From NCBI GenBank assembly GCA_016839955.1, contig JAEOTI010000307.1, forward strand, positions 1 through 12,448: a stretch of DNA of 12,448 bases, read 5' to 3'. Positions 1,572-12,448 of the stretch are shown piece by piece. Source of the stretch: Candidatus Hodarchaeota archaeon. GTDB lineage: Archaea; Asgardarchaeota; Heimdallarchaeia; Hodarchaeales; YT1-057. How positions within the stretch are numbered: the stretch's first letter is position 1; each line of letters opens with the position of its first letter. The notes below the pieces were generated by a model that saw only the letters and a program-made list of their open reading frames with translations, was not told where the DNA came from and ran no database searches. The position numbers were made by a program, and so were the translations under genes.

Positions 1572-2576
1572 TTATATTCTTTCTTCTGGTTGTATATAAT
1601 TCCAACCAACAGTCTCGAAAACCAAATGCTCCGTTGGCGTTTTTTTTGGTATATATACATCACGTTCCCCCATTACATCTTTAATTTGCCTTAATTCTTC
1701 CAATTGTCCGTTTTTAACTTTGAATTTTGGTTTGATCTCTGTTACAAACCGCTTTGAGAACTCAGCACTTCCAGTTCTAAGAAGAAAAATCACTCCCCAT
1801 TGTGCTGGAGGCAAGACAATAAATAAGTCAGCTTTGATTAAATTGTTCTGATATTTATCTAATATCTCAAATTGTTTATATCTCTTGCCATTTTTAAGGA
1901 TTCTAATTATATTCTTCTGATTCAGGTCGTTTATAATTCTGTTTAACGCACCCTCTGATAAGGGGTCTATTTTACATACAATTTCAATATCTTTGACTCT
2001 TGGGTTTTTTCTCCTAATAGATCCCGCAAATTGGATTTGTTCACACACAGGAGAAATAAATGCCTTTATTTTTTGCCCGATTCTCCTTGCTCTATCAAGT
2101 TCCATGCCCTTTTTATTTTTAGACCCATGTTGATGAAAAAAATGGAATAAATCTTTTTTGGGTAAGGATTTCTTTAATTTAAATGTTACCAGATATTTAT
2201 CCTTAAATCCACCACGATGAGACTTCACTTCTCTTCGCTTTACAGTTATTCTCTCTTCCTTTTCTAACTCTCTAAGGGCTGATCGACATTGTTTTTCAAT
2301 GTAATTTGTATTGATATAGATATATTCTAGTATTTCTTGGTAAGTTACTGTTTTTTCATTGTATCCACGAAGGAGAAATTCTTTCATGTATTTTACTTCT
2401 CTATTAGGATCAACAAATTCCAATAAGGAATTTGTTTTAAGATCTTTAATCCCCTTATAGGCGAACTGGCCTTCCTTTCCCTGTTTAAACATTATATTCT
2501 TCATGATGCTGAATCCTTTGAAATGATTGCTAGCATGGATTAAATAATATATGTTTTCATCTTTGTGATCAAGCAC
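1572..2576 (-). CDS. TcmP C-terminal segment fused in frame to a PolX-like nucleotidyltransferase
   Basis: The 334-residue frame has two parts. Residues 1-157 are not a nucleotidyltransferase. IYYLIHASNH (9-18), G21, MKNIMF (25-30), then a predicted winged helix (about 70-130) match the C-terminal third of TcmP proteins. Residues 158-334 are a DNA polymerase X-type nucleotidyltransferase: GSIRR (185-189), catalytic D196-x-E198, third carboxylate D250, RTGSAEF (267-273), and a C-terminal GWxYIxPxxR block. Such domains transfer nucleotides to DNA or RNA ends or other acceptors; the substrate here is unknown. GTG 2576 directly follows an in-frame TAG and has no Shine-Dalgarno, so it is a poor start. 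An internal ATG at 2105 (M158) would give a 177-residue free nucleotidyltransferase, as often seen in phage and island genes, but its ribosome site is also poor. The frame is best read as the 3' part of the broken gene at 1572-3258. The nucleotidyltransferase identification is firm; the unit of expression is not. Confidence 0.7.
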   Translation of the reverse strand: MLDHKDENIYYLIHASNHFKGFSIMKNIMFKQGKEGQFAYKGIKDLKTNSLLEFVDPNREVKYMKEFLLRGYNEKTVTYQEILEYIYINTNYIEKQCRSALRELEKEERITVKRREVKSHRGGFKDKYLVTFKLKKSLPKKDLFHFFHQHGSKNKKGMELDRARRIGQKIKAFISPVCEQIQFAGSIRRKNPRVKDIEIVCKIDPLSEGALNRIINDLNQKNIIRILKNGKRYKQFEILDKYQNNLIKADLFIVLPPAQWGVIFLLRTGSAEFSKRFVTEIKPKFKVKNGQLEELRQIKDVMGERDVYIPKKTPTEHLVFETVGWNYIQPEERI

Positions 2577-2646
2577 CTATCTGATAATGAACCACATATT
2601 TCGCATATTCAGATAATCTAGTTACATAACGATTGGTAACATCTTC

Positions 2647-3255
2647 TTAGCCATTTAAATTCATTAAATGTTCATCCCCTCCCATTAGGTCACGTAAAGC
2701 ATTCCTATGAGTATCACTGTTTAGAAATCGATTAATGTTCTTTGTCATCAAAGTAATAAAGACTTCATTCTCCCCACGTGTCAAAATCTCTTTAATATCA
2801 TTGAGGGGAAGTCCTTTAAATCCGAAAGGATCCAAGAAAACAAAGAATGGTTTTTCTGATAAAGATTTCAAATAATATGGAAGGATTTTCGAAAATTCCT
2901 TGTTACGGCATTCTATTGATATTTTATGTGAAATCTCATTTTCTTTTTTCTTAAGTATTTTTCTTAGTGTTTCAAAATTATCAGTATCCTTTTCAACAAA
3001 TATGCATTGGCATGATCCAAAGTAATGTTCATTTTCAGTCAATGTTCTTAATGCTAATATGGGAGATCCATGCCTTCTTGTATTGATATATTTTCCTCGT
3101 CCAGCGAAGCCATCTAAATATCCAATGTCCTTAAAAACCATCCCTAGTATCTTAGACCATGCCTCAAAGTACTTCTTAAACAGAGTATGTTTTACAAAAA
3201 TATGAAAAGCATACTCCCACTTTTTTGGGTCACTATCTTTCAAAGGCCGTGTCAT
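2647..3255 (-). CDS. tcmP: Three-Cys-motif partner TcmP, copy 2, N-terminal piece
   Basis: About 202 residues hold the methyltransferase-like part of a TcmP protein: YLDGFAGRGKY (residues 47-57, counted from GTG 3258) for the SAM-loop motif, VEKD (88-91), and FLDPFGFKG (141-149) for motif IV. The LMGGDEH block then runs into a TAA at 2647-2649. Family members normally run 300-400 residues, and the missing C-terminal third is found in the next frame downstream (1572-2576). I prefer ATG 3255 to GTG 3258, because GGGG lies five bases upstream of the ATG and only two upstream of the GTG. The gene is divergent from the three-Cys-motif gene across a 172-175 base AT-rich gap. As it stands the product would lack the YYL-TnH and winged-helix parts and may be inactive. 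Confidence 0.7.
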   Translation of the reverse strand: MTRPLKDSDPKKWEYAFHIFVKHTLFKKYFEAWSKILGMVFKDIGYLDGFAGRGKYINTRRHGSPILALRTLTENEHYFGSCQCIFVEKDTDNFETLRKILKKKENEISHKISIECRNKEFSKILPYYLKSLSEKPFFVFLDPFGFKGLPLNDIKEILTRGENEVFITLMTKNINRFLNSDTHRNALRDLMGGDEHLMNLNG

Positions 3256-3258
3256 CAC

Positions 3259-3430
3259 TACCCCATCAACATGTTAGTGCATTTTTATCATTATACCTGT
3301 TACAATTTTGCAAACCAAAACATTAATGTATTATATTATTTTGGATATAAAATATATTTTCTGAATATATATTGGAGATAATTTAATCTGAATTATTTTT
3401 AACAGTGTTTTTGTAGGATTGTCACACTAT
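3259..3430. promoter_or_regulatory. Divergent AT-rich promoter region with two AT palindromes
   Basis: This gap separates the divergent TcmP2 and three-Cys-motif genes and should hold both promoters. It contains a TATA-like stretch, GATATAAAATATAT (3344-3357), a perfect 12-base palindrome AAAATATATTTT (3349-3360) and a 10-base palindrome AATATATATT (3364-3373). In AT-rich DNA such palindromes can arise by chance, so an operator or TATA-box role is only suggested. Confidence 0.3.
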
Positions 3431-4234
3431 ATGGCTAAAACAAAGGGTACAAAAGAATGGGCTTGTTCTAATGTTAATTTCAGTAAAGGATGCTCACACG
3501 GATGTCGTTATTGTTACGCCCGCAGAATGGCAAATAGATTTGGATGGAAAAAAGATGCTGATTGGCCAAATATGGAAAACAAACCTGAATTTGCCAAAAA
3601 GAGCTTTAGGAAACGACAAGGGTGGATTATGAGTCCTTCCAGCCATGATATAACTCAATCCAACAAAAATCTGGCGTTGAAAGTATTTAAAAATATCCTA
3701 CAACCTGGGAACAACTTACTCATAGTTTCCAAACCAAGTTTCCGTATTGTACAATTTTTATGTAAAGAATTACTTCCTTGGAAAAATCAAATACTTTTTC
3801 GCTTTACTATTGGTACATTAAGTGATCAAAAAAGGCGATATTGGGAACCCTTTGCTCCATCGATAAATCAACGTATAAAAGCCTTAGAATATACTAACGA
3901 CTATGAGTGGAATAATAGTATTTCGATTGAACCCTTTTTAGATGATGGAGTTGTTAATTTGATTAACGCTGTTGATTCTTGTGTTAGCCACACAATTTGG
4001 ATTGGTCCGATGAACAAAATCCATGTACCTAAGAATCTTTGGACGAAAGAATTAACGAATTTATACTCAGGTGAATCTTTATCACAGCTTAAAAGCGAAA
4101 TAGATTCTCTTAATAATCCTAAAATTCGTTATAAGGATCACTTCCTCAACATTTTAGCTAGATCGAGAAAAAAAGAGAAGGGAGTTCTACATCAACACCA
4201 AAAGGCCCCGATTATTGCTCCTCTTTGCCAATGA
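3431..4234 (+). CDS. Three-Cys-motif (TCM) radical-SAM-like protein, phage Gp37/Gp68 (DUF5131) family
   Basis: The 267-residue product carries C21-SHG-C25-RY-C28-YA-RRMA near its N-terminus. This CxxxCxxC motif is the one that binds a 4Fe-4S cluster in radical SAM enzymes and gives three-Cys-motif proteins their name. Further family marks are a serine- and proline-rich region around MSPSSHD, LLIVSKP, RFTIGTL, SIEPFLDDG and KIRYKDHFLNIL near the end. The family occurs in phages and islands next to TcmP proteins, as here. The reaction is unknown, and radical SAM chemistry is inferred from the motif. ATG 3431 is chosen. A TTG at 3419 would add four residues but is directly abutted by AGGA at 3415-3418, too close for a ribosome site; AGGA to ATG is 12 bases, somewhat long. 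The stop (4232-4234) is followed within two bases by T8. Confidence 0.85.
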   Translation: MAKTKGTKEWACSNVNFSKGCSHGCRYCYARRMANRFGWKKDADWPNMENKPEFAKKSFRKRQGWIMSPSSHDITQSNKNLALKVFKNILQPGNNLLIVSKPSFRIVQFLCKELLPWKNQILFRFTIGTLSDQKRRYWEPFAPSINQRIKALEYTNDYEWNNSISIEPFLDDGVVNLINAVDSCVSHTIWIGPMNKIHVPKNLWTKELTNLYSGESLSQLKSEIDSLNNPKIRYKDHFLNILARSRKKEKGVLHQHQKAPIIAPLCQ

Positions 4235-4649: not shown

Positions 4650-5441
4650 TTGAGGGCCAATTATAATGTAGAATACTCTTGTTCTGATTTAGATAATTGT
4701 TTTTATTCTGGAATAAAGTTTCAAGACTTTTTTATTCAAGAATATCTTAGTGAACGAATTCATCAAAGGTATTTCGATACTGAGGGATCAGAAGAATTAA
4801 CGAATGAATTTTCTGATATAGAAACAACTGATTTTGAAATTGAGGAATTAAGAAAAATATTTGAAATTGACATTCCTATTGATGATTGGAGAATAGGGGA
4901 AGTATTAGCAGAATGTTTCTTGGAAGATTATAAAGAAGCTAAGTTCTATTATAACCATATTAGAGATGCGAAAAATCCCCGTTCAAGTTTAACTGGCACA
5001 GATTTAGTGGGTTTTGTAAATACAAATAATCAAACTATTTTCCTGTTTGGAGAAGTTAAGAGCTCTCATCAACAAGTTTCACCCCCATCTGTAATTTATG
5101 GAGATACTGGGCTTATAAGTCAATTAAATGATCTAAAGGGAAATTCTAAAGTTCGTGGTGAATTAATTAGATGGCTTGGATTAAAAGTATTTCAGTTGCC
5201 TGATAGCCATCCATTTAAGATTGATTTTAAAAAAGCCCTTTACATATATTACAACTCAGAAAATAAAAGGATAAAGATTGTTGGAGTATTGATAAGAGAT
5301 ACTGAGCCAAATGAAGATGATTTAAAACGCGTTTTTGATGATCTAAAATATGACTTAGATAGTGATACTTTAATCGAATTACTGGCTCTTTATTTACCAA
5401 TGACTTTCATTGATGCTGAGATCCATTTTAGATCTGCTTAG
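4650..5441 (+). CDS. hamA: HamA-like PD-(D/E)XK nuclease of a Hachiman-type defence pair (DUF1837-like)
   Basis: The 263-residue protein has an acidic, variable N-terminus and then a nuclease core in the expected order: GE-LAE (E84, E88), GTD with D118, and GEVK with E135 and K137, the D-ExK signature of restriction-endonuclease-fold nucleases. Next comes VxGxLI-type strand sequence near 214-220. HamA (also called AbpA in Escherichia coli) is a small DUF1837 nuclease that works with the helicase HamB. In characterised Hachiman systems the complex senses DNA damage or unusual ends, and HamA then degrades DNA and stops the infected cell. The identification rests on the nuclease motif plus a long Ski2-type helicase 11 bases downstream; I could not run a profile search. 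Its stop overlaps the Shine-Dalgarno of the helicase, implying coupled translation. All expected catalytic residues are present. Confidence 0.7.
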   Translation: MRANYNVEYSCSDLDNCFYSGIKFQDFFIQEYLSERIHQRYFDTEGSEELTNEFSDIETTDFEIEELRKIFEIDIPIDDWRIGEVLAECFLEDYKEAKFYYNHIRDAKNPRSSLTGTDLVGFVNTNNQTIFLFGEVKSSHQQVSPPSVIYGDTGLISQLNDLKGNSKVRGELIRWLGLKVFQLPDSHPFKIDFKKALYIYYNSENKRIKIVGVLIRDTEPNEDDLKRVFDDLKYDLDSDTLIELLALYLPMTFIDAEIHFRSA

Positions 5442-5452
5442 GAGTAAAAAAA

Positions 5453-8400
5453 ATGGAAACGAACCATTGGATTTTGAAGACTTTGGAAATAGCAGATTTT
5501 AAAAATCTTGACAGTGTGATCAATGAAAAAAGACTTTCTGACAAATTTTATCAAAAAATAGAATTAAACGAAGAAGAAAAAAAACTACTCGAAAATAGAT
5601 TAGAAGTGTTTGAACTAGCCATAATTGACATATTGAATATTATTGCTGCAAATGAGAATGTAGAAGAAAAGAAAAATGAATTGATTAAGATTTGCTATTA
5701 TTGTTTCAGAATATATAGAATTCTTCCTATCCCATCAGATGATCTCGAAAAAATAAAACACATATTGAAACTTGTTTCTTATGCATACCTTGGTGAAAAA
5801 TGGGAGGATGGCAGACGGTATTTAACAGAACATGAAGATGTTGTGTGGAAAATCAACAAAAGAAAAGAGGATGAATGGGATTATTATCTATTAGTTAATT
5901 CATATTTAGCGATATTGTATTTGATTAGAAAAACATCATGGGAAGACTTGGATAGTGCCATTAAATGCATTAATTCTATGAGAACAGCACAGCTTGAATA
6001 TGAAAAGCACTATTTGGATAACATTGAGTCTATAAATAAGAAGGGAGCAGCTTATGAGCTTGCAGCTTTCTATCATTTAGCTAAAAGCATTGAGCTTTTA
6101 TCCGAATTTATGATTGATGCTAGGATATCTAGTGACAACCTTTTAAACCGGTTAGATTTCCATTTCGATAAAGCTATTCACTACTGTGAAATCTCTAACA
6201 TTATAGAATTCGACTTGTTATTACATCAATTGAGAGCGTTGTTTAAAAAGATAGTTTTTAATTCAATTTGGCGTATTGCAGAGCGAGTCAATTCCAAGGT
6301 AAGTTCTTTTGTAAAAACAATAACAAAATCGAGTAAACCGATATTTGAACTCTTATACCCTCAAAAAGTATCAATAATGGAAAAGGGTTTACTTGATGTC
6401 GCTAAAAGGGCGATTGTAGTAAATCTACCCACCTCCAGTGGGAAAACATTTCTTGCAGAATTTAAAATATTGCAAGCTTTAAACCAATTTTCAGAAATAG
6501 GGGGGTGGATTGCTTATGTAGCACCAACTAGAGCTCTTGTAAATCAAATAACATCCAATTTACGTAGAGATCTTTCAAAGCCACCACTAGATATAAAAGT
6601 TGAAAAAATGAGTGGTGCTTTGGAAATTGATACCTTTGAGGACAATCTTCTAAAAATAGAAAAAGGTTTTGATGTTCTAGTTACCACTCCTGAGAAGTTA
6701 AATCTTTTAATAAGGCAAGATATCAATAAACAGCTGATTCAGAATTTAATTCTTGTAATCGTTGATGAAGCTCATAATTTAGAAGATAAGACTAGAGGAA
6801 TTAATCTTGAAATGCTCTTATCAATAATCAAAAATGATTGTAAAAAAGCGAATTTTCTATTATTGACACCACTTGTACCTAACAGCTTAGAAATAGCAAA
6901 ATGGTTGGATCCCCAAAATCCCACAAGTATCAGTTTAAAATTTCAATGGGAAGCTAGCGACCGTGTTATTGGAATTTATTTTCCAAAAGGCTCAGGAACT
7001 AATTGGAAAACAGTATTTAAACCCCTAATAACAAGTCAAGAGACTATTACTTTGGATGATGAGTTTTTATTAGGAGAAAATCCAAATTTGGATTTAACTC
7101 TATCTTCGCTTAAAACAAAATATCTCTTAACTTCTATAGTAGCAATGCAAATCCAAAATTTAGGAAATACTCTATTATTGGCAAGAACTATAAAGAGCTG
7201 CTGGAAAATTGGATCTAAACTGTATGAAATTATGCCTAATCTTTCTTCAGTTGGTGATGAAGTTAGATTAGTGATGAAATTTGTCGCGGCCGAATTAGGG
7301 GGAAAATTTCCCCTTGTTTCCTATTTAGAAAAAGGTATAGGAGTTCATAATGCTGGACTCCCTGATGAAATCAGGAACCTAATGGAGTGGTTAATGGAAG
7401 AAGGAAAACTGAAAGTGTTAGTAGCTACAAGTACAATAGCTCAAGGAATCAACTTTCCAGTTTCTAATATTTTAATATCTTCGTATAGTTATCCATTTAC
7501 ATCAACAATGCCAACAAGAGATTTTTGGAATCTTGTTGGACGTGCTGGACGTATTAATCAAAGCTCTTTAGGAGTTGTTGGAATTGCTTCTCCTGGATTA
7601 GAGACGGAAGATGCGTTAAAAACCATTAATTACGTTAAATTGAACACCAAGAATTTGGTTTCTGCTCTAGTCACAATGCTTGATACAACCCTTAATCTAG
7701 TTGAAGAACATAATTTTGAGGCATTATCGTATAAGACTGAGTGGTCAGCATTTCTTCAATACATCTCACATATCTATAGACAATATCAGAATCTTGAAAG
7801 TTTTACTGCAGAACTCGAATTAACATTGAGAAATACATATGGATATTCTCTACTAGAAAAAGATAAACAAACATTATTAGTCAATAGTATGCGTGAATAC
7901 TCAAAAAAACTTGATGAAAATAAACACCTTTGTACTTTGTCAGATCAAACTGGTTTTTCACCTGAATCAATCGAAAAGACTATTAGAATTATGAATAAAA
8001 TCGGAATTTCTCAATCTGATTGGAATACTAGTAGATTATTTTCTTCTGATTCTAAAGCTCTTAGAAAATTGATCCAAGTTATGTTTATGATCCCAGAAAT
8101 TCGATCTAACCTAAAAGAAGTAAAAATTCCTGGAACTACAAGAACTTATACATCGGTTTCAAGATTGATAGAAAAATGGGTATCTGGCACGGAGATTCCT
8201 CAAATAGCTATAGAATTTTGGAAAAATAATGATCCAGAATCCTTATCTGAATGTGTGAAAAGTATTTATCGTCTTGTTTCCAATTCTGCCGCGTGGGGCT
8301 TATCTTCAATCCAAAAAATACCAGGATCAGGCTTAGATTTCGAACAATTATCTGAAGATGAGATTAAAAAGATTAATAATTTGCCTTCAATGGTCTATTA

Positions 8401-8644
8401 TGGTGTGAAAACTGACCATGCCATTATGATGAGAATGAATAATGTTCCAAGAAGTATAGCAGAATCTTTAGGAAAAGTCTTTAAAGAAGATAACAAGGAT
8501 TTATATTCTACTAATCCAAAATTTGTTACTGATTGGCTTTATAATCTTGATGATGAGATTTGGCAGAAAACTATTCCACCTAATAAAGATATTTCTGGCA
8601 AAGAATATAAAGAAGTTTGGAAGAAAATTTCTGGATTTAGTTAA
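5453..8644 (+). CDS. hamB: HamB-like superfamily 2 (Ski2-type) helicase
   Basis: The 1063-residue protein has about 320 helical residues before the helicase core. The core motifs are PTSSGKT (Walker A, 326-332), APTRAL (Ia, 357-362), DEAH (II, 438-441), TPLVPN in the motif III position (472-477), HNAGLP (632-637), ATSTIAQGINFP (V, 658-669) and GRAGR (VI, 696-700). HNAGLP and the IAQGIN-FP motif V point to the Ski2-like branch. The C-terminal 360 residues include YYGV (982-985) and VPR (998-1000), which resemble the end of HamB-type helicases. In Hachiman, HamB is the ATP-driven DNA sensor that restrains HamA until it meets suitable DNA. ATG 5453 follows AGGAG (5440-5444), which overlaps the hamA stop. 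All ATPase residues are present, so it should be active. A stand-alone repair helicase is the alternative, but the adjacent nuclease argues against it. Confidence 0.75.
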   Translation: METNHWILKTLEIADFKNLDSVINEKRLSDKFYQKIELNEEEKKLLENRLEVFELAIIDILNIIAANENVEEKKNELIKICYYCFRIYRILPIPSDDLEKIKHILKLVSYAYLGEKWEDGRRYLTEHEDVVWKINKRKEDEWDYYLLVNSYLAILYLIRKTSWEDLDSAIKCINSMRTAQLEYEKHYLDNIESINKKGAAYELAAFYHLAKSIELLSEFMIDARISSDNLLNRLDFHFDKAIHYCEISNIIEFDLLLHQLRALFKKIVFNSIWRIAERVNSKVSSFVKTITKSSKPIFELLYPQKVSIMEKGLLDVAKRAIVVNLPTSSGKTFLAEFKILQALNQFSEIGGWIAYVAPTRALVNQITSNLRRDLSKPPLDIKVEKMSGALEIDTFEDNLLKIEKGFDVLVTTPEKLNLLIRQDINKQLIQNLILVIVDEAHNLEDKTRGINLEMLLSIIKNDCKKANFLLLTPLVPNSLEIAKWLDPQNPTSISLKFQWEASDRVIGIYFPKGSGTNWKTVFKPLITSQETITLDDEFLLGENPNLDLTLSSLKTKYLLTSIVAMQIQNLGNTLLLARTIKSCWKIGSKLYEIMPNLSSVGDEVRLVMKFVAAELGGKFPLVSYLEKGIGVHNAGLPDEIRNLMEWLMEEGKLKVLVATSTIAQGINFPVSNILISSYSYPFTSTMPTRDFWNLVGRAGRINQSSLGVVGIASPGLETEDALKTINYVKLNTKNLVSALVTMLDTTLNLVEEHNFEALSYKTEWSAFLQYISHIYRQYQNLESFTAELELTLRNTYGYSLLEKDKQTLLVNSMREYSKKLDENKHLCTLSDQTGFSPESIEKTIRIMNKIGISQSDWNTSRLFSSDSKALRKLIQVMFMIPEIRSNLKEVKIPGTTRTYTSVSRLIEKWVSGTEIPQIAIEFWKNNDPESLSECVKSIYRLVSNSAAWGLSSIQKIPGSGLDFEQLSEDEIKKINNLPSMVYYGVKTDHAIMMRMNNVPRSIAESLGKVFKEDNKDLYSTNPKFVTDWLYNLDDEIWQKTIPPNKDISGKEYKEVWKKISGFS

Positions 8645-8765
8645 ATTTACAAATAAACAAATGAGTGCAGAAAATATTCGCAATGTTAATTTGAAATTTA
8701 ATTTACTTGATAAATAATCATTTCAGAGTATTTATCATCAATTTGAACTGATAATTAAATAAATG

Positions 8766-8771
8766 AAGGGG
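8766..8771 (+). promoter_or_regulatory. Shine-Dalgarno supporting start 8778 over 8763
   Basis: AAGGGG lies six bases before ATG 8778. It falls inside the first codons of a reading from ATG 8763, which itself has no ribosome site upstream. The later ATG is therefore preferred. Confidence 0.5.
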
Positions 8772-8777
8772 TCAAGA

Positions 8778-9851
8778 ATGATAGAAAGCAATGACATAAT
8801 TCATGTCAAAAACGAAAATAGTTGGGTAAATAATGGTATTAAGTATGCAGAAAAATCTTTAAACTCCACCTTTAACAGAATGGCCAGTCCTAATCCGTAT
8901 AAAAGAATGAGGAGGATAATAAAGGGTATACTATCTGAATTAGCGTTTGAAAATATATTGTCAAGCAAAAAAATTGCTTTCGACACAAAAGGACGAACGA
9001 GATGGTATGAAATTGATAGATATGATATTGCATTGAAATCAAGAAAATGCGATCTTAAATCCTTTTTTCTTGATTTAGATTTGGATTATTTAAAAAATAA
9101 AAAAATTTTAGATCTCAAGCCTTCTTCTTCTGAATGGTTGCTTGATTGCTCCGCACTCGTTCCCTCTGATCAATTATATCAAAGAAAGTTTCAAGAAAAA
9201 GATCTCTACCTTTTTGCATTCATTAGTGGAAGAATAAGACCTTCATTGACAGATAGAATGATGAGAGATAACCTAGATAAGTACATAATTCACTCTTTCT
9301 GGGATTATTCATGGATCAAACCACAAAAATGGATTAAGAAACATGGAAAATCGAAATTGGGAATAATAAAAATTTCATCAAATAATTCTCAAGACCAAGG
9401 TAAGAAAATCACCATCGGAGGGACAATTGATCATCGCAAGTTTATGTTTGAAGAGGTTGAACTTGTTAACAATCCTCCAAGAGCAATAACAAAAAACAAT
9501 TTCTTCCAACTTTATTATCTTCAGTTGCCTGATGGGATTATTCCAAAAGGGACTTTAACGATAACAGCTTCAAGTAATAATACGAAGGAGATTGTGTATC
9601 CTGACTTTGGTTTCAGAGCTATAAAATTAGCTACTCGAGAATATGTAATTGATTTCAATAATTGGAACAATATTTGGATATACGATTCTGAATCATATTT
9701 TGTGGGTTATATGGAGAAAGGTGAATTTAAGAAGAAATCTACTGAAATTAAACGATTTTATAAAGATTGTAAACAATATCGCGATACATTAACTGATAAT
9801 AACATGATCATTGTGCAAGATTTGCATCCCTTAAGCAATATAATTGTTTAA
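8778..9851 (+). CDS. Candidate restriction endonuclease with PD-(D/E)XK-like core
   Basis: I do not recognise a named family for this 357-residue protein. Residues about 45-100 look like a nuclease core: an E-rich helix GILSELAFE (E54, E58), then DRYDIA (D80, D83), then CDLKS with D92 and K94, a D-(8)-D-x-K arrangement similar to the D-(E/D)xK active site of many type II endonucleases. The middle is basic and tryptophan-rich (around FWDYSWIKPQKWIKKHG), as in DNA-binding proteins. The C-terminal W-IYDS-YFVGYM-K-EFKKKS block resembles tails seen in some endonuclease-like island proteins. The neighbours decide the reading: a DEDDh exonuclease and a DNA methyltransferase follow after 14 and 12 bases, so a restriction role is likely. 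A gap of 133 bases separates it from hamB, so it may start a second transcript. Cut site and cofactor are unknown. Confidence 0.55.
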   Translation: MIESNDIIHVKNENSWVNNGIKYAEKSLNSTFNRMASPNPYKRMRRIIKGILSELAFENILSSKKIAFDTKGRTRWYEIDRYDIALKSRKCDLKSFFLDLDLDYLKNKKILDLKPSSSEWLLDCSALVPSDQLYQRKFQEKDLYLFAFISGRIRPSLTDRMMRDNLDKYIIHSFWDYSWIKPQKWIKKHGKSKLGIIKISSNNSQDQGKKITIGGTIDHRKFMFEEVELVNNPPRAITKNNFFQLYYLQLPDGIIPKGTLTITASSNNTKEIVYPDFGFRAIKLATREYVIDFNNWNNIWIYDSESYFVGYMEKGEFKKKSTEIKRFYKDCKQYRDTLTDNNMIIVQDLHPLSNIIV

Positions 9852-9865
9852 GGAGACTTATAAAA

Positions 9866-10447
9866 ATGATTGAATTACCTTTCAATGAAGCTCTTTTTTC
9901 TGTAATTGATTTGGAAACATCTGGCTTTTCCCCAGAGAATAATTCTATAATTGAAATCGGGATACAGCAAATTGAGCATTTAAAACTGACAAAGACTTAT
10001 AATAGCTTTGTATATACTGATGATCCTATAGAGTTGAATATTACTAAAAAAACAGGCATAACAAATGAAATGCTAATGAGTGAACCACTTATAGAAGAAT
10101 TAGAACCAAACATATGCAAATTTATACAGGAATCAATAATAGTTGAACATAGTAGAAATGATTTTGATTTGAATTTTCTAAAAAATAGTATTAATTGCCT
10201 TAACAAAGTCTACCATGTGAACACCTGCTTTCTTTCAAGAGAATTGTATCCAAATTCTGAAGAAAACTATGATTTAGCTACAATAGCTTCAAATTTAAAT
10301 ATTAAAAATAGATTTCCTCATCATGCGCTTGATGATGCAAAAACATGTGCATTAATATTACTGGAAATCATTGAAGATTTGTCTAACCTATCCCTGAAAT
10401 GTTTGAAGGATTTAAATGAAGCATTCAAAATCCCCATTTTAAAGTAA
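9866..10447 (+). CDS. DEDDh 3'-5' exonuclease (DnaQ/epsilon-like)
   Basis: The 193-residue protein is essentially one exonuclease domain. Exo I is VIDLETSGF with D15 and E17. TGITNEML (63-70) is the usual linker motif. Exo II is DFDLNFL with D101, where the classic form is HN-FD-FL. Exo III is HHALDDA with H152 and D157. The family removes nucleotides from 3' ends of DNA or RNA using two metal ions. There are no polymerase, helicase or UvrC parts, so it is not a fused repair enzyme. It begins 14 bases after the endonuclease stop, with AGGAG (9851-9855) overlapping that stop, and the methyltransferase follows after 12 bases. A trimming role on ends made by the neighbouring nuclease is inferred from this position only. 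A ribonuclease role (RNase T-like) is the main alternative. Confidence 0.85.
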   Translation: MIELPFNEALFSVIDLETSGFSPENNSIIEIGIQQIEHLKLTKTYNSFVYTDDPIELNITKKTGITNEMLMSEPLIEELEPNICKFIQESIIVEHSRNDFDLNFLKNSINCLNKVYHVNTCFLSRELYPNSEENYDLATIASNLNIKNRFPHHALDDAKTCALILLEIIEDLSNLSLKCLKDLNEAFKIPILK

Positions 10448-10459
10448 TTTCGGAGTTTA

Positions 10460-11542
10460 TTGGTTTTGGATCCAAATCTTTTCGAGCTAGAAAATCAAAA
10501 AATCTATTTCAAATCCTCAGAAAATATGTCTGAATTGCCGAATGAATCTGTGCAATTGGTCTTGACTTCACCTCCTTATTGGAATGTTAGAGATTATGGA
10601 GGAGAACAAATTGGATTTGGACAAAGCTACAAAGAATATATTTCCTCTCTTAACAGAGTTTGGTCTGAATGTATTCGAGTATTACGACCTAATGGAAAAA
10701 TTGCTATTAACGTCCAGCCTTTACCAATTCGAAGCGAATTATCAGGTTTTGGGAGAAGAATTATCCAGAATATCATGCACGATATTGAGGTTTTCATGAG
10801 AAAAACAGATTTATATCTCTCTTGTATGTTCTATTGGGACAAAGCAGCATATATTAGTAATGTAAGCTGGGGATCTTATCCCTACCCGACAAACATTGCT
10901 TCAAACACATCTTTTGAACAAATTTTTGTTTGGGTTAAAAGAGGGAAAACTCGGTCAATTTCTAGGGAAATTTTGGATGATAATAGCTTAACAAAGAATG
11001 AATGGAGACATTGGGCTGTACGTTGTTTATGGGATGACATTTCCCCTGTTATAAAAATTGACTCTAAGGGGAATAATCGTTTTGGTCATTCTGCGCCTTT
11101 TCCAGAAGAAATTCCATACCGATTAATCCGCATGCATACAGTTGAAGGAGAAAGGGTTCTTGATCCTTTTTTAGGTTCAGGAACAACCTTGAAGGTATGT
11201 AGGCTTACTGGTCGAAAAGGTGTAGGTTACGAGATTAATAAAAGATATAAATCACTCATTAGAAATAGAATTCTTGAAAATTGGAGCATTCCAGAGATTG
11301 AAGACCAATACAAGACCGTAGGTTCAAGGACTCTAGCAGAAATTCTAAATATTGCTTATTCTACAAGCAATGATTATCCTCTAGTATCTTATGATGAATT
11401 TCTGGTATTACTCAAAAATGCCATACAAAAAGAACAATCGAATTTTTTTTCGAAGAGCTTCCTGAATCACGTTTTCAAGACTTTTAAAAAAGAAAAAAGA
11501 AAAAATATGCAGAAAAAATTAAGTGATTTTCTTGAAATTTAA
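10460..11542 (+). CDS. Beta-class DNA methyltransferase (N4-cytosine type motif TSPPYW)
   Basis: The 360-residue protein has the catalytic motif TSPPYW (36-41) near the N-terminus and the SAM-binding motif DPFLGSGTT (235-243) late, the motif IV before motif I order of the beta class. TSPPYW is most often seen in N4-cytosine enzymes, while adenine enzymes more often have DPPY; adenine methylation is not excluded. The target recognition part lies between the two motifs (about 90-220). A basic tail of about 90 residues ends in a lysine-rich helix. The role is to protect host DNA from the candidate endonuclease at 8778-9851. TTG 10460 has CGGAG only four bases upstream; TTG 10466 would have ten bases. 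Either start leaves the domain intact. No specificity subunit or motor protein is next to it, so a type II-like system is inferred. Confidence 0.85.
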   Translation: MVLDPNLFELENQKIYFKSSENMSELPNESVQLVLTSPPYWNVRDYGGEQIGFGQSYKEYISSLNRVWSECIRVLRPNGKIAINVQPLPIRSELSGFGRRIIQNIMHDIEVFMRKTDLYLSCMFYWDKAAYISNVSWGSYPYPTNIASNTSFEQIFVWVKRGKTRSISREILDDNSLTKNEWRHWAVRCLWDDISPVIKIDSKGNNRFGHSAPFPEEIPYRLIRMHTVEGERVLDPFLGSGTTLKVCRLTGRKGVGYEINKRYKSLIRNRILENWSIPEIEDQYKTVGSRTLAEILNIAYSTSNDYPLVSYDEFLVLLKNAIQKEQSNFFSKSFLNHVFKTFKKEKRKNMQKKLSDFLEI

Positions 11543-11834: not shown

Positions 11835-12448
11835 TCATGTTTGTGGTAATAGTCGGTTGACTAATTGGGAATCTATTAAAGGAAGATTTTTTCTATTTAT
11901 CCTAAGGTTCAGTCTCTGGAACAGTTTCTGGGAGCGATCAACCCAACAATATTCAAACAAAGTGCGAACTTCGTTCCAGACATTCACAGAATCAGGAGTG
12001 AGTGGGATGGGTGAATAGATCAATGGAGTATAGGTACGAAGAAGATATTTATGACGCTCTAGCTCATTTGAGTAACTGTTACAGGTTCGAAATACCTCAC
12101 ATAGATGATTAACATGAGTTTTGTGAGCCTCGATATATGGGAGCCACTGTTGGTCATACCAAAGGGGCTGTTGAAGAATATTCTGGTGAACTAGATCTCC
12201 TCTAAGAATTCGTTGAGTCCAATCCCAAGGGAAATAATAGTGGAATTCGGCCTCGTCTTGTCTGACCCCAAATTGACCTCCATGGACTGTTCGTGTAGCT
12301 ATCGCCTGAGTTAAGATTAATCGCGATATTACCCGTCCTACCTCCTCTAGGTCAAGATGACCTGCCCGTCCTGGTTTATCTGCACTTCGATGACTAAAAA
12401 GAGGATCAGTATAAAAGCCTAGGCCCGCTTTGGCGTTAGAAATGCGAA
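11835..12448 (-). CDS. Unrecognised protein, C-terminal part (5' end off the window)
   Basis: The minus strand is open for 203 codons from the right window edge to the TGA at 11835-11837, with no internal stop. The 62-codon stretch from TTG 12023 is only its tail. I do not recognise the family. Visible features are an early segment LFSHRSADKPGRAG, then a helix-like LEEVGRVISRLILTQAIATR, an aromatic segment FHYYFPWDWTQRIL, further tryptophans at LWYDQQWLPYI, and a basic C-terminus rich in R, L and N. No signal peptide or membrane span is evident in this part. G+C is about 40-45% on the lines counted, closer to the left-edge gene than to the island genes, so it is probably host sequence. The long open frame in a relatively stop-poor but unbiased region supports real coding. 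Confidence 0.6.
   Translation of the reverse strand, partial: RISNAKAGLGFYTDPLFSHRSADKPGRAGHLDLEEVGRVISRLILTQAIATRTVHGGQFGVRQDEAEFHYYFPWDWTQRILRGDLVHQNILQQPLWYDQQWLPYIEAHKTHVNHLCEVFRTCNSYSNELERHKYLLRTYTPLIYSPIPLTPDSVNVWNEVRTLFEYCWVDRSQKLFQRLNLRINRKNLPLIDSQLVNRLLPQT

Follow-up and report, generated by a model that had tools for sequence, protein, structure and literature searches.

A Hachiman-type nuclease-helicase pair joined to a candidate restriction-modification operon in an Asgard archaeon

Introduction

Do five consecutive genes of an Asgard archaeon encode a single defense system, or do they represent two self-sufficient systems that have been joined? The question is raised by a stretch of 12,448 nucleotides of Candidatus Hodarchaeota archaeon (assembly GCA_016839955.1, contig JAEOTI010000307.1), hereafter called the window. 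It contains, one after the other, genes for a HamA-type nuclease (gene 1), a HamB-type helicase (gene 2), a candidate restriction endonuclease (gene 3), a DEDDh exonuclease (gene 4) and a DNA methyltransferase (gene 5). The original prediction, made from the sequence alone, had suggested that they may form a compound system in which restriction ends or exonuclease products feed the DNA sensor HamB. In the accessible part of PMC11291487, Hachiman is named among the systems that Asgard archaea carry more often than other prokaryotes do.

Our analysis indicates that the locus probably consists of a Hachiman-type pair (PDC-M23, 4650-8644) and a restriction-modification operon (8778-11542) that have become joined, the two modules being self-sufficient and their joining recurrent. 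The linkage of hamA with hamB and that of the methyltransferase with the nuclease are conserved, and hamAB was repeatedly found beside restriction-modification genes. The window adds one more case of this recurrent pairing, its partner module being type II-like.

Results

Genes 1 and 2 as a nuclease-helicase pair

The product of gene 1 contains the motifs GTD (residues 116-118) and GEVK (134-137) and matched the PADLOC model PDC-M23A (E-value 4e-76) over residues 5-256 of 263. The match to the Pfam family HamA (PF08878) reached 16.7 bits and stayed under the 25-bit cut-off; the PADLOC model of HamA gave an E-value of 0.022. Gene 1 has the HamA fold, with an identity of 15% in the structural alignment. 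Residues D118, E135 and K137 were invariant in all 54 aligned relatives, and G134 was conserved in at least 90%. Gene 1 thus possesses the catalytic D-GEXK motif, which an excerpt of PMC12799240 names as the HamA motif.

Gene 2, whose product exhibits the motifs TSSGKT, DEAH and GRAGR, was covered by the model PDC-M23B over residues 3-1061 of 1063 (1260.7 bits). As a Ski2-like helicase of the HamB kind it was also matched by the HamB models of PADLOC (best score 210.9 bits), and its profile aligned with the solved HamB structure 8vx9_B (7.3e-39). Slh1, Brr2 and an archaeal Ski2-type helicase outscored the solved HamB in this search.

Both models of PDC-M23, a two-gene candidate system of PADLOC, were therefore matched over their full length, with the A gene upstream of the adjoining B gene (gap of 11 bases), an order found in 82 of 83 related loci (see below). 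The three further genes of the window are not part of PDC-M23. As gene 1 remained under the cut-off of PF08878, we classed the pair as PDC-M23 and not as Hachiman proper. Of the predicted kinship with HamA and HamB, the part concerning the HamB models and the HamA fold was borne out, and membership in the HamA sequence family was not. The structural and motif data give evidence that PDC-M23 is a Hachiman-type nuclease-helicase pair, a class which would then be broader than current HamA profiles detect. The name PDC-M23 was not found in the open-licence literature searched.

The Hachiman variants AbpAB and HamMAB resemble the locus in having an added nuclease. According to the available sections of PMC12278908 and PMC12799240, their additions are domains fused to HamA, whose own site is without catalytic residues, and in HamMAB the fused domains activate the product of a separate nuclease gene. 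In contrast, gene 1 of the window has kept its catalytic residues, and nothing is fused to it.

Restriction-modification genes beside hamAB

We analyzed 83 hamAB loci, comprising the best 80 of 112 genome-contig stretches that encode a relative of gene 2 and three viral contigs. A HamA-type frame was located directly upstream of hamB on the same strand in all loci except L003, which starts at a contig end. The HamA match was weaker and partial in L010, L027 and L058 (best E-values 2.5e-22, 2e-19 and 3.3e-19).

The regions in front of the pair yielded restriction-modification genes. From 77 loci with 400 bases or more before hamA, 67 upstream frames were scanned, in which Pfam disclosed the type I specificity domain (HsdS) seven times, N6_Mtase six times and PF01555 three times; PADLOC specificity models matched up to eight of these frames. 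On the downstream side, we took the longest frame that begins no more than 700 bases after hamB. Out of 63 loci giving such a frame, 62 were scanned, and no Pfam family occurred in more than three of them. Among the PADLOC matches listed for the frames after hamB were varied defense parts, e.g., PtuA and JetB.

The neighbors were identified by help of solved S subunits (HsdS), 3h1t (HsdR), 3ufb together with S subunits (fused M-S), PF01555 (type III-like Mod) and annotated plasmid relatives (R subunits); a large adenine methyltransferase was included as well. Profiles built from these genes were used to determine contiguity, defined as the same strand and a distance of at most 600 bases. Restriction-modification genes were contiguous with hamAB in 17 of the 83 loci; 600 bases were present on both sides in 66 of the 83. 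The controls were 409 other genes of at least 250 amino acids from the same loci, of which 16 had such a neighbor (odds ratio 6.3, P 2e-6). Recurrent contiguity was thus observed for restriction-modification genes of several types (L021, L022, L028, L031, L032, L033, L035, L036, L041, L042, L046, L049, L051, L052, L066, L081 and L082). A PF01555 fragment lying 485 bases upstream in L009 was left out of this count.

The arrangements differed. HsdR-HsdM-HsdS, or HsdR with a fused M-S protein, preceded hamAB in five loci (L021, L028, L032, L033, L052), and L022 showed the order HsdM-HsdS-HsdR-hamAB. In L031, L046, L081 and L082 the pair resided directly between modification and restriction genes, so that the restriction subunit immediately follows hamB, as gene 3 does in the window. 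L041 and L051 contained a modification gene, hamAB, one further gene and then the restriction gene, and in L035 and L036 a type IIG-like methyltransferase was found upstream of the pair.

Some loci revealed additional peculiarities. L046 and L051 harbor hamAB inside type III-like operons, with Mod upstream and the restriction subunit downstream of hamB. In L051 a frame of 349 codons lies between hamB and the restriction subunit; L049 contains a relative of this frame, 206 codons long, which overlaps the start of hamA. An Ensifer plasmid (L131, 1698-6457) encodes a PDC-M23B helicase (595 bits) with an upstream partner of 286 amino acids that had no PADLOC match, and a DCL-family gene directly downstream of the helicase; it is possibly an effector-swapped variant of the pair. 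In Cenarchaeum (L019, 727-13114), the hamB-type gene is preceded by frames of 1329 and 1085 codons. All three are similar to one another (2.4e-244 and 1.7e-226 when the frame of 1085 codons served as query), indicating three helicases of the hamB kind in a row.

Gene 3, a candidate nuclease of an unnamed family

Gene 3 encodes the motifs RYDI (81-84) and CDLK (91-94). The N-terminal part of the protein contains E54, D83 and D92-x-K94 and is followed by a beta-rich domain that begins near residue 165; AlphaFold modelled it with a predicted local distance difference test score (pLDDT) of 89.2. Nothing exceeded the cut-offs in Pfam or NCBIfam, and no PADLOC model matched. A word-based search listed 28 proteins including gene 3 itself, i.e., 27 others. 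Its archaeal relatives include a protein of Promethearchaeota (ACFFB5_13790, on a 205-kb contig) and one of Micrarchaeia (QXI58_06785). Within 27 aligned proteins of the family D92 and K94 were invariant and D83 nearly so, and position 54 was always occupied by E or Q. These conserved residues would suit a PD-(D/E)XK site. We regard gene 3 as a candidate PD-(D/E)XK enzyme on the basis of these residues and of its genetic linkage, not of a family or fold match.

This linkage was studied in Chloroflexota, the phylum of a Caldilineaceae locus, where 23 of 400 genomes possess a relative of gene 3. Up to 20 kb were examined around each of them; all 23 contexts are those of Chloroflexota and none that of a close archaeal relative. 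A methyltransferase gene was located directly upstream in 15 of the 23 loci and at a distance of 1.2 kb in one more, which demonstrates an evolutionary linkage of nuclease and methyltransferase. D83, D92 and K94 were all retained in 15 of the 16 methyltransferase-linked copies vs four of the seven solo copies. Such a tendency would be anticipated if the active enzyme depended on its methyltransferase, though the difference was not significant (Fisher P 0.067) and is suggestive only. Among the solo relatives, L115, L117, L124, L125 and L126, with no methyltransferase detected, included two with changed catalytic residues; on visual inspection, frames nearby looked like an NAD-epimerase and a lipoprotein.

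In the samples taken from eight further phyla, each named after its central locus, relatives were rare or absent. Weak relatives of the N-terminal part were found in two of 194 genomes of Nanoarchaeota (the phylum of a Woesearchaeota locus), one adjoining a PF01555 methyltransferase with a ResIII helicase, the other an Eco57I/TaqI-type methyltransferase. Halobacteriota gave one weak relative (L127) among 246 genomes, and by eye no methyltransferase was recognized in its 3.4 kb. Gene 3 was not found in the sampled genomes of Thermoproteota (0/300), Desulfobacterota (0/148), Aenigmatarchaeota (0/96), Omnitrophota (0/145), Latescibacterota (0/64) and Bacteroidota (0/198), nor in two sets of genomes holding hamAB loci (0/12 and 0/11). 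Searches of IMG/VR and of plasmids and phages yielded no relatives, and a pattern search among genome contigs gave none either. The gene-3 family is thus small, unnamed and methyltransferase-linked, and may constitute a new kind of restriction endonuclease.

Genes 4 and 5

Gene 5 contains TSPPYW (36-41) and DPFLGSGTT (235-243) and matched PF01555 (127.6 bits, 9.2e-37), the PADLOC model MTase_II (198.2 bits, 4.1e-59) and the structure 2zie (5e-33). It is hence a DNA methyltransferase, the modification enzyme that a type II restriction-modification system would require. The S/T-P-P-Y form of the motif presumably favors N4-cytosine methylation.

Gene 4 exhibits the motifs DLET, EHSRNDFD and HHALDDA and matched PF00929 (1.7e-20) and the PolC exonuclease 2p1j (7.6e-20). 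The word-based search, which has little sensitivity for such a divergent superfamily, listed three proteins including gene 4 itself, with no neighbor of the Promethearchaeota relative of gene 3 among them. The 23 genomes with a gene-3 relative gave 42 matches to PF00929, the nearest of which, in one genome, was 3.7 kb away, so that no link between the exonuclease and gene 3 emerged. An exonuclease beside gene 3 was observed at this single locus only, and it is apparently a local addition to the operon. The open-licence literature searched contained no relevant report on restriction-modification combined with a DEDDh exonuclease.

Taken together, genes 3 to 5 resemble a type II restriction-modification system in that a methyltransferase and a candidate nuclease are encoded on one strand and the nuclease family is methyltransferase-linked elsewhere. 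They differ from it by a nuclease of no named family and by the exonuclease gene inserted between nuclease and methyltransferase.

The gap between the two modules

The 133 bases separating hamB from gene 3 showed no strong RNA structure (fold z -0.78). Three inverted-repeat pairs were detected, the best at 8708-8737. A repeat of this kind occurred once in the window vs 0.45 times on average in 20 shuffles; being within chance, it was rejected as an operator. Sigma-70-like matches at 8646-8675 and 8691-8718 were likewise discarded, since the window contained 59 such matches vs 54.9 expected from shuffles. A strong terminator and promoter in the gap had been named beforehand as an argument against a compound system; the fold, repeat and sigma-70-like scans disclosed neither. 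With no strong structure and no inverted repeat beyond chance, a single transcript may cross the gap, and co-transcription of all five genes is possible.

Discussion

All enzyme activities and any coupling between the modules are inferred. By analogy to Hachiman, the Ski2-like helicase would scan DNA. An encounter with a free end or with damage would make it hydrolyze ATP and unleash the D-GEXK nuclease, whereby the DNA would be destroyed and the infection aborted. The methyltransferase would protect the sites of the host and the 357-residue nuclease cut unmodified DNA, while the DEDDh exonuclease would probably trim 3' ends so that the cuts cannot be rejoined. The outcome would be a layered defense, with restriction first and suicide second.

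Several observations weigh against our reading of the locus as two such modules joined in a recurrent manner. The fold search with gene 3 returned no nuclease, and its rows aligned to the C-terminal beta domain. The Chloroflexota proteins are 25-33% identical to gene 3 of the window, and in seven of their 23 loci, one of them (L126) cut by a contig end, no methyltransferase was detected. Three Chloroflexota methyltransferases were scanned; their best PF01555 match, in the C-terminal half of the family, lay near their own N-terminus, so that these partners are built unlike gene 5. By the profiles applied, 66 of the 83 hamAB loci were without a contiguous restriction-modification gene. As neighbors of hamAB had served as seeds, the profiles favor the detection of such genes at this place; the control genes, taken from the same loci, lack independence, and L041 nearly duplicates L042. 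The counts made with Pfam and PADLOC upstream of hamA do not depend on the seeded profiles and are thus free of this seeding bias. Lastly, relatives of gene 3 or gene 4 were absent from all 83 hamAB loci (1.32 Mb, E-values up to 0.01) and hamAB from all 23 Chloroflexota loci with gene 3, and neither the gene order of the window nor its nuclease beside hamAB recurred in any other locus sampled.

The last results bear most directly on an obligate five-gene system, no part of which would work alone. The co-directional genes, their short gaps and the lack of a strong terminator speak for it. However, the conserved five-gene order looked for in relatives was not found, and as far as sampled the last genes occur without hamAB and hamAB without them. 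As the pair and the nuclease of the operon each occur apart elsewhere, we consider such a machine highly improbable. Thus, what survives of the compound system proposed in the original prediction is the wider idea, hamAB being located beside other restriction-modification types in 17 of 83 loci, and not a conserved five-gene set. It is also unlikely, though less so, that gene 3 is no restriction enzyme, gene 5 an orphan methyltransferase and gene 4 an exonuclease for repair. The missing family, PADLOC and fold matches of gene 3 and the seven loci without a detected methyltransferase would fit this assumption, but the methyltransferase gene next to it in 15 of 23 loci speaks against it, as does, suggestively, the better retention of D83, D92 and K94 in linked copies.

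Since the embedding of defense genes in defense genes is already known, the main rival is a passive accumulation, in which restriction operons act as hotspots gathering unrelated defense genes without functional coupling. The available part of PMC12255303 reports DarTG2 between hsdS and hsdR of a type I operon, a site called a potential hotspot; it shares with PDC-M23 the union of a self-contained pair with restriction-modification genes, but in the window the pair lies in front of the type II-like nuclease-exonuclease-methyltransferase set instead of within it. PADLOC's candidate systems were found via 'guilt-by-embedding', as stated in an excerpt of PMC12988326, and other defense parts such as PtuA and JetB follow hamB elsewhere. 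On the other hand, the junction involves three or more restriction types in various gene orders, which would not be expected from a single insertion site. We consider passive accumulation possible rather than probable; its likelihood overlaps with that of the joined self-sufficient modules, which we prefer. The same overlap and a similarly limited likelihood apply to a functional wiring, in which restriction cuts widened by the exonuclease would produce the ends that trigger HamAB and would thereby keep the modules together. The recurrent joining agrees with it, as do the response of HamAB to DNA ends and damage and its activation by ends (PMC12278908, in the portion available) and the synergy of Hachiman with CRISPR-Cas, another DNA cutter, in S. 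thermophilus (PMC12322248, likewise in part). Yet most hamAB loci have no contiguous restriction genes, and the published synergy concerns CRISPR-Cas and Hachiman, not restriction and PDC-M23. The most far-reaching version is the more doubtful one: evolution would have repeatedly wired PDC-M23 to DNA cutters, restriction ends would arm HamAB, and the window would be the most elaborate case seen, combining an endonuclease family without a previous name with an exonuclease that resects ends into the form sensed by HamB. Because the pair has repeatedly been joined with several restriction types, whether restriction products arm the suicide nuclease is a directly testable question.

Organization and flanks of the locus

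The five open reading frames that had been predicted were all confirmed at their positions on the forward strand (Table 1), as were their motifs in the translations and the spacing of 11, 133, 14 and 12 bases, in this order. The five gene identifications hold as well, with the refinements given above for genes 1 and 3. A purine-rich stretch resides close upstream of each of the five starts, and the G+C content of the window is 29-38% in 1-kb steps. Pfam cut-offs were exceeded by genes 2, 4 and 5; together with the PDC-M23A match of gene 1 and the listed relatives of gene 3, this shows that all five are genuine genes. The nearest named relatives of genes 2 and 3 are archaeal, including a protein of Methanofastidiosia among the closest relatives of gene 2 (56%) and a Promethearchaeota protein similar to gene 3 (53%).

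Table 1. Positions of the five genes and of the intermodule gap in the window
Feature	Position	Strand	Remarks
Gene 1, HamA-type nuclease (PDC-M23A)	4650..5441	+	263 amino acids, TTG start, D118 and G134-E135-V136-K137 motif
Gene 2, HamB-type Ski2-like superfamily 2 (SF2) helicase (PDC-M23B)	5453..8644	+	1063 amino acids
Gap between the two modules	8645..8777	+	133 bases
Gene 3, candidate restriction endonuclease, unnamed family	8778..9851	+	357 amino acids
Gene 4, DEDDh (DnaQ-like) 3'-5' exonuclease	9866..10447	+	193 amino acids, catalytic motifs present
Gene 5, DNA methyltransferase, PF01555	10460..11542	+	360 amino acids, TTG start, TSPPYW before FLGSGTT

To the right of gene 5, an open frame of 203 codons on the reverse strand (11838-12446), which had no Pfam or PHROG match, runs off the end of the window. 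On the left side, a gene for TcmP (three-Cys-motif partner) on the reverse strand is seemingly split (1572-3258): its N-terminal part is encoded in 2647-3258. The next frame (1572-2576) begins with a C-terminal TcmP match and is weakly similar to a PolX-type protein over its remainder. Similarity to the PADLOC candidates PDC-M30 and PDC-M41 was shown by a second TcmP gene (612-1535) and, weakly, by a divergent radical-SAM/DUF5131-like gene (3419-4234), suggesting that the left flank is defense-like, too.

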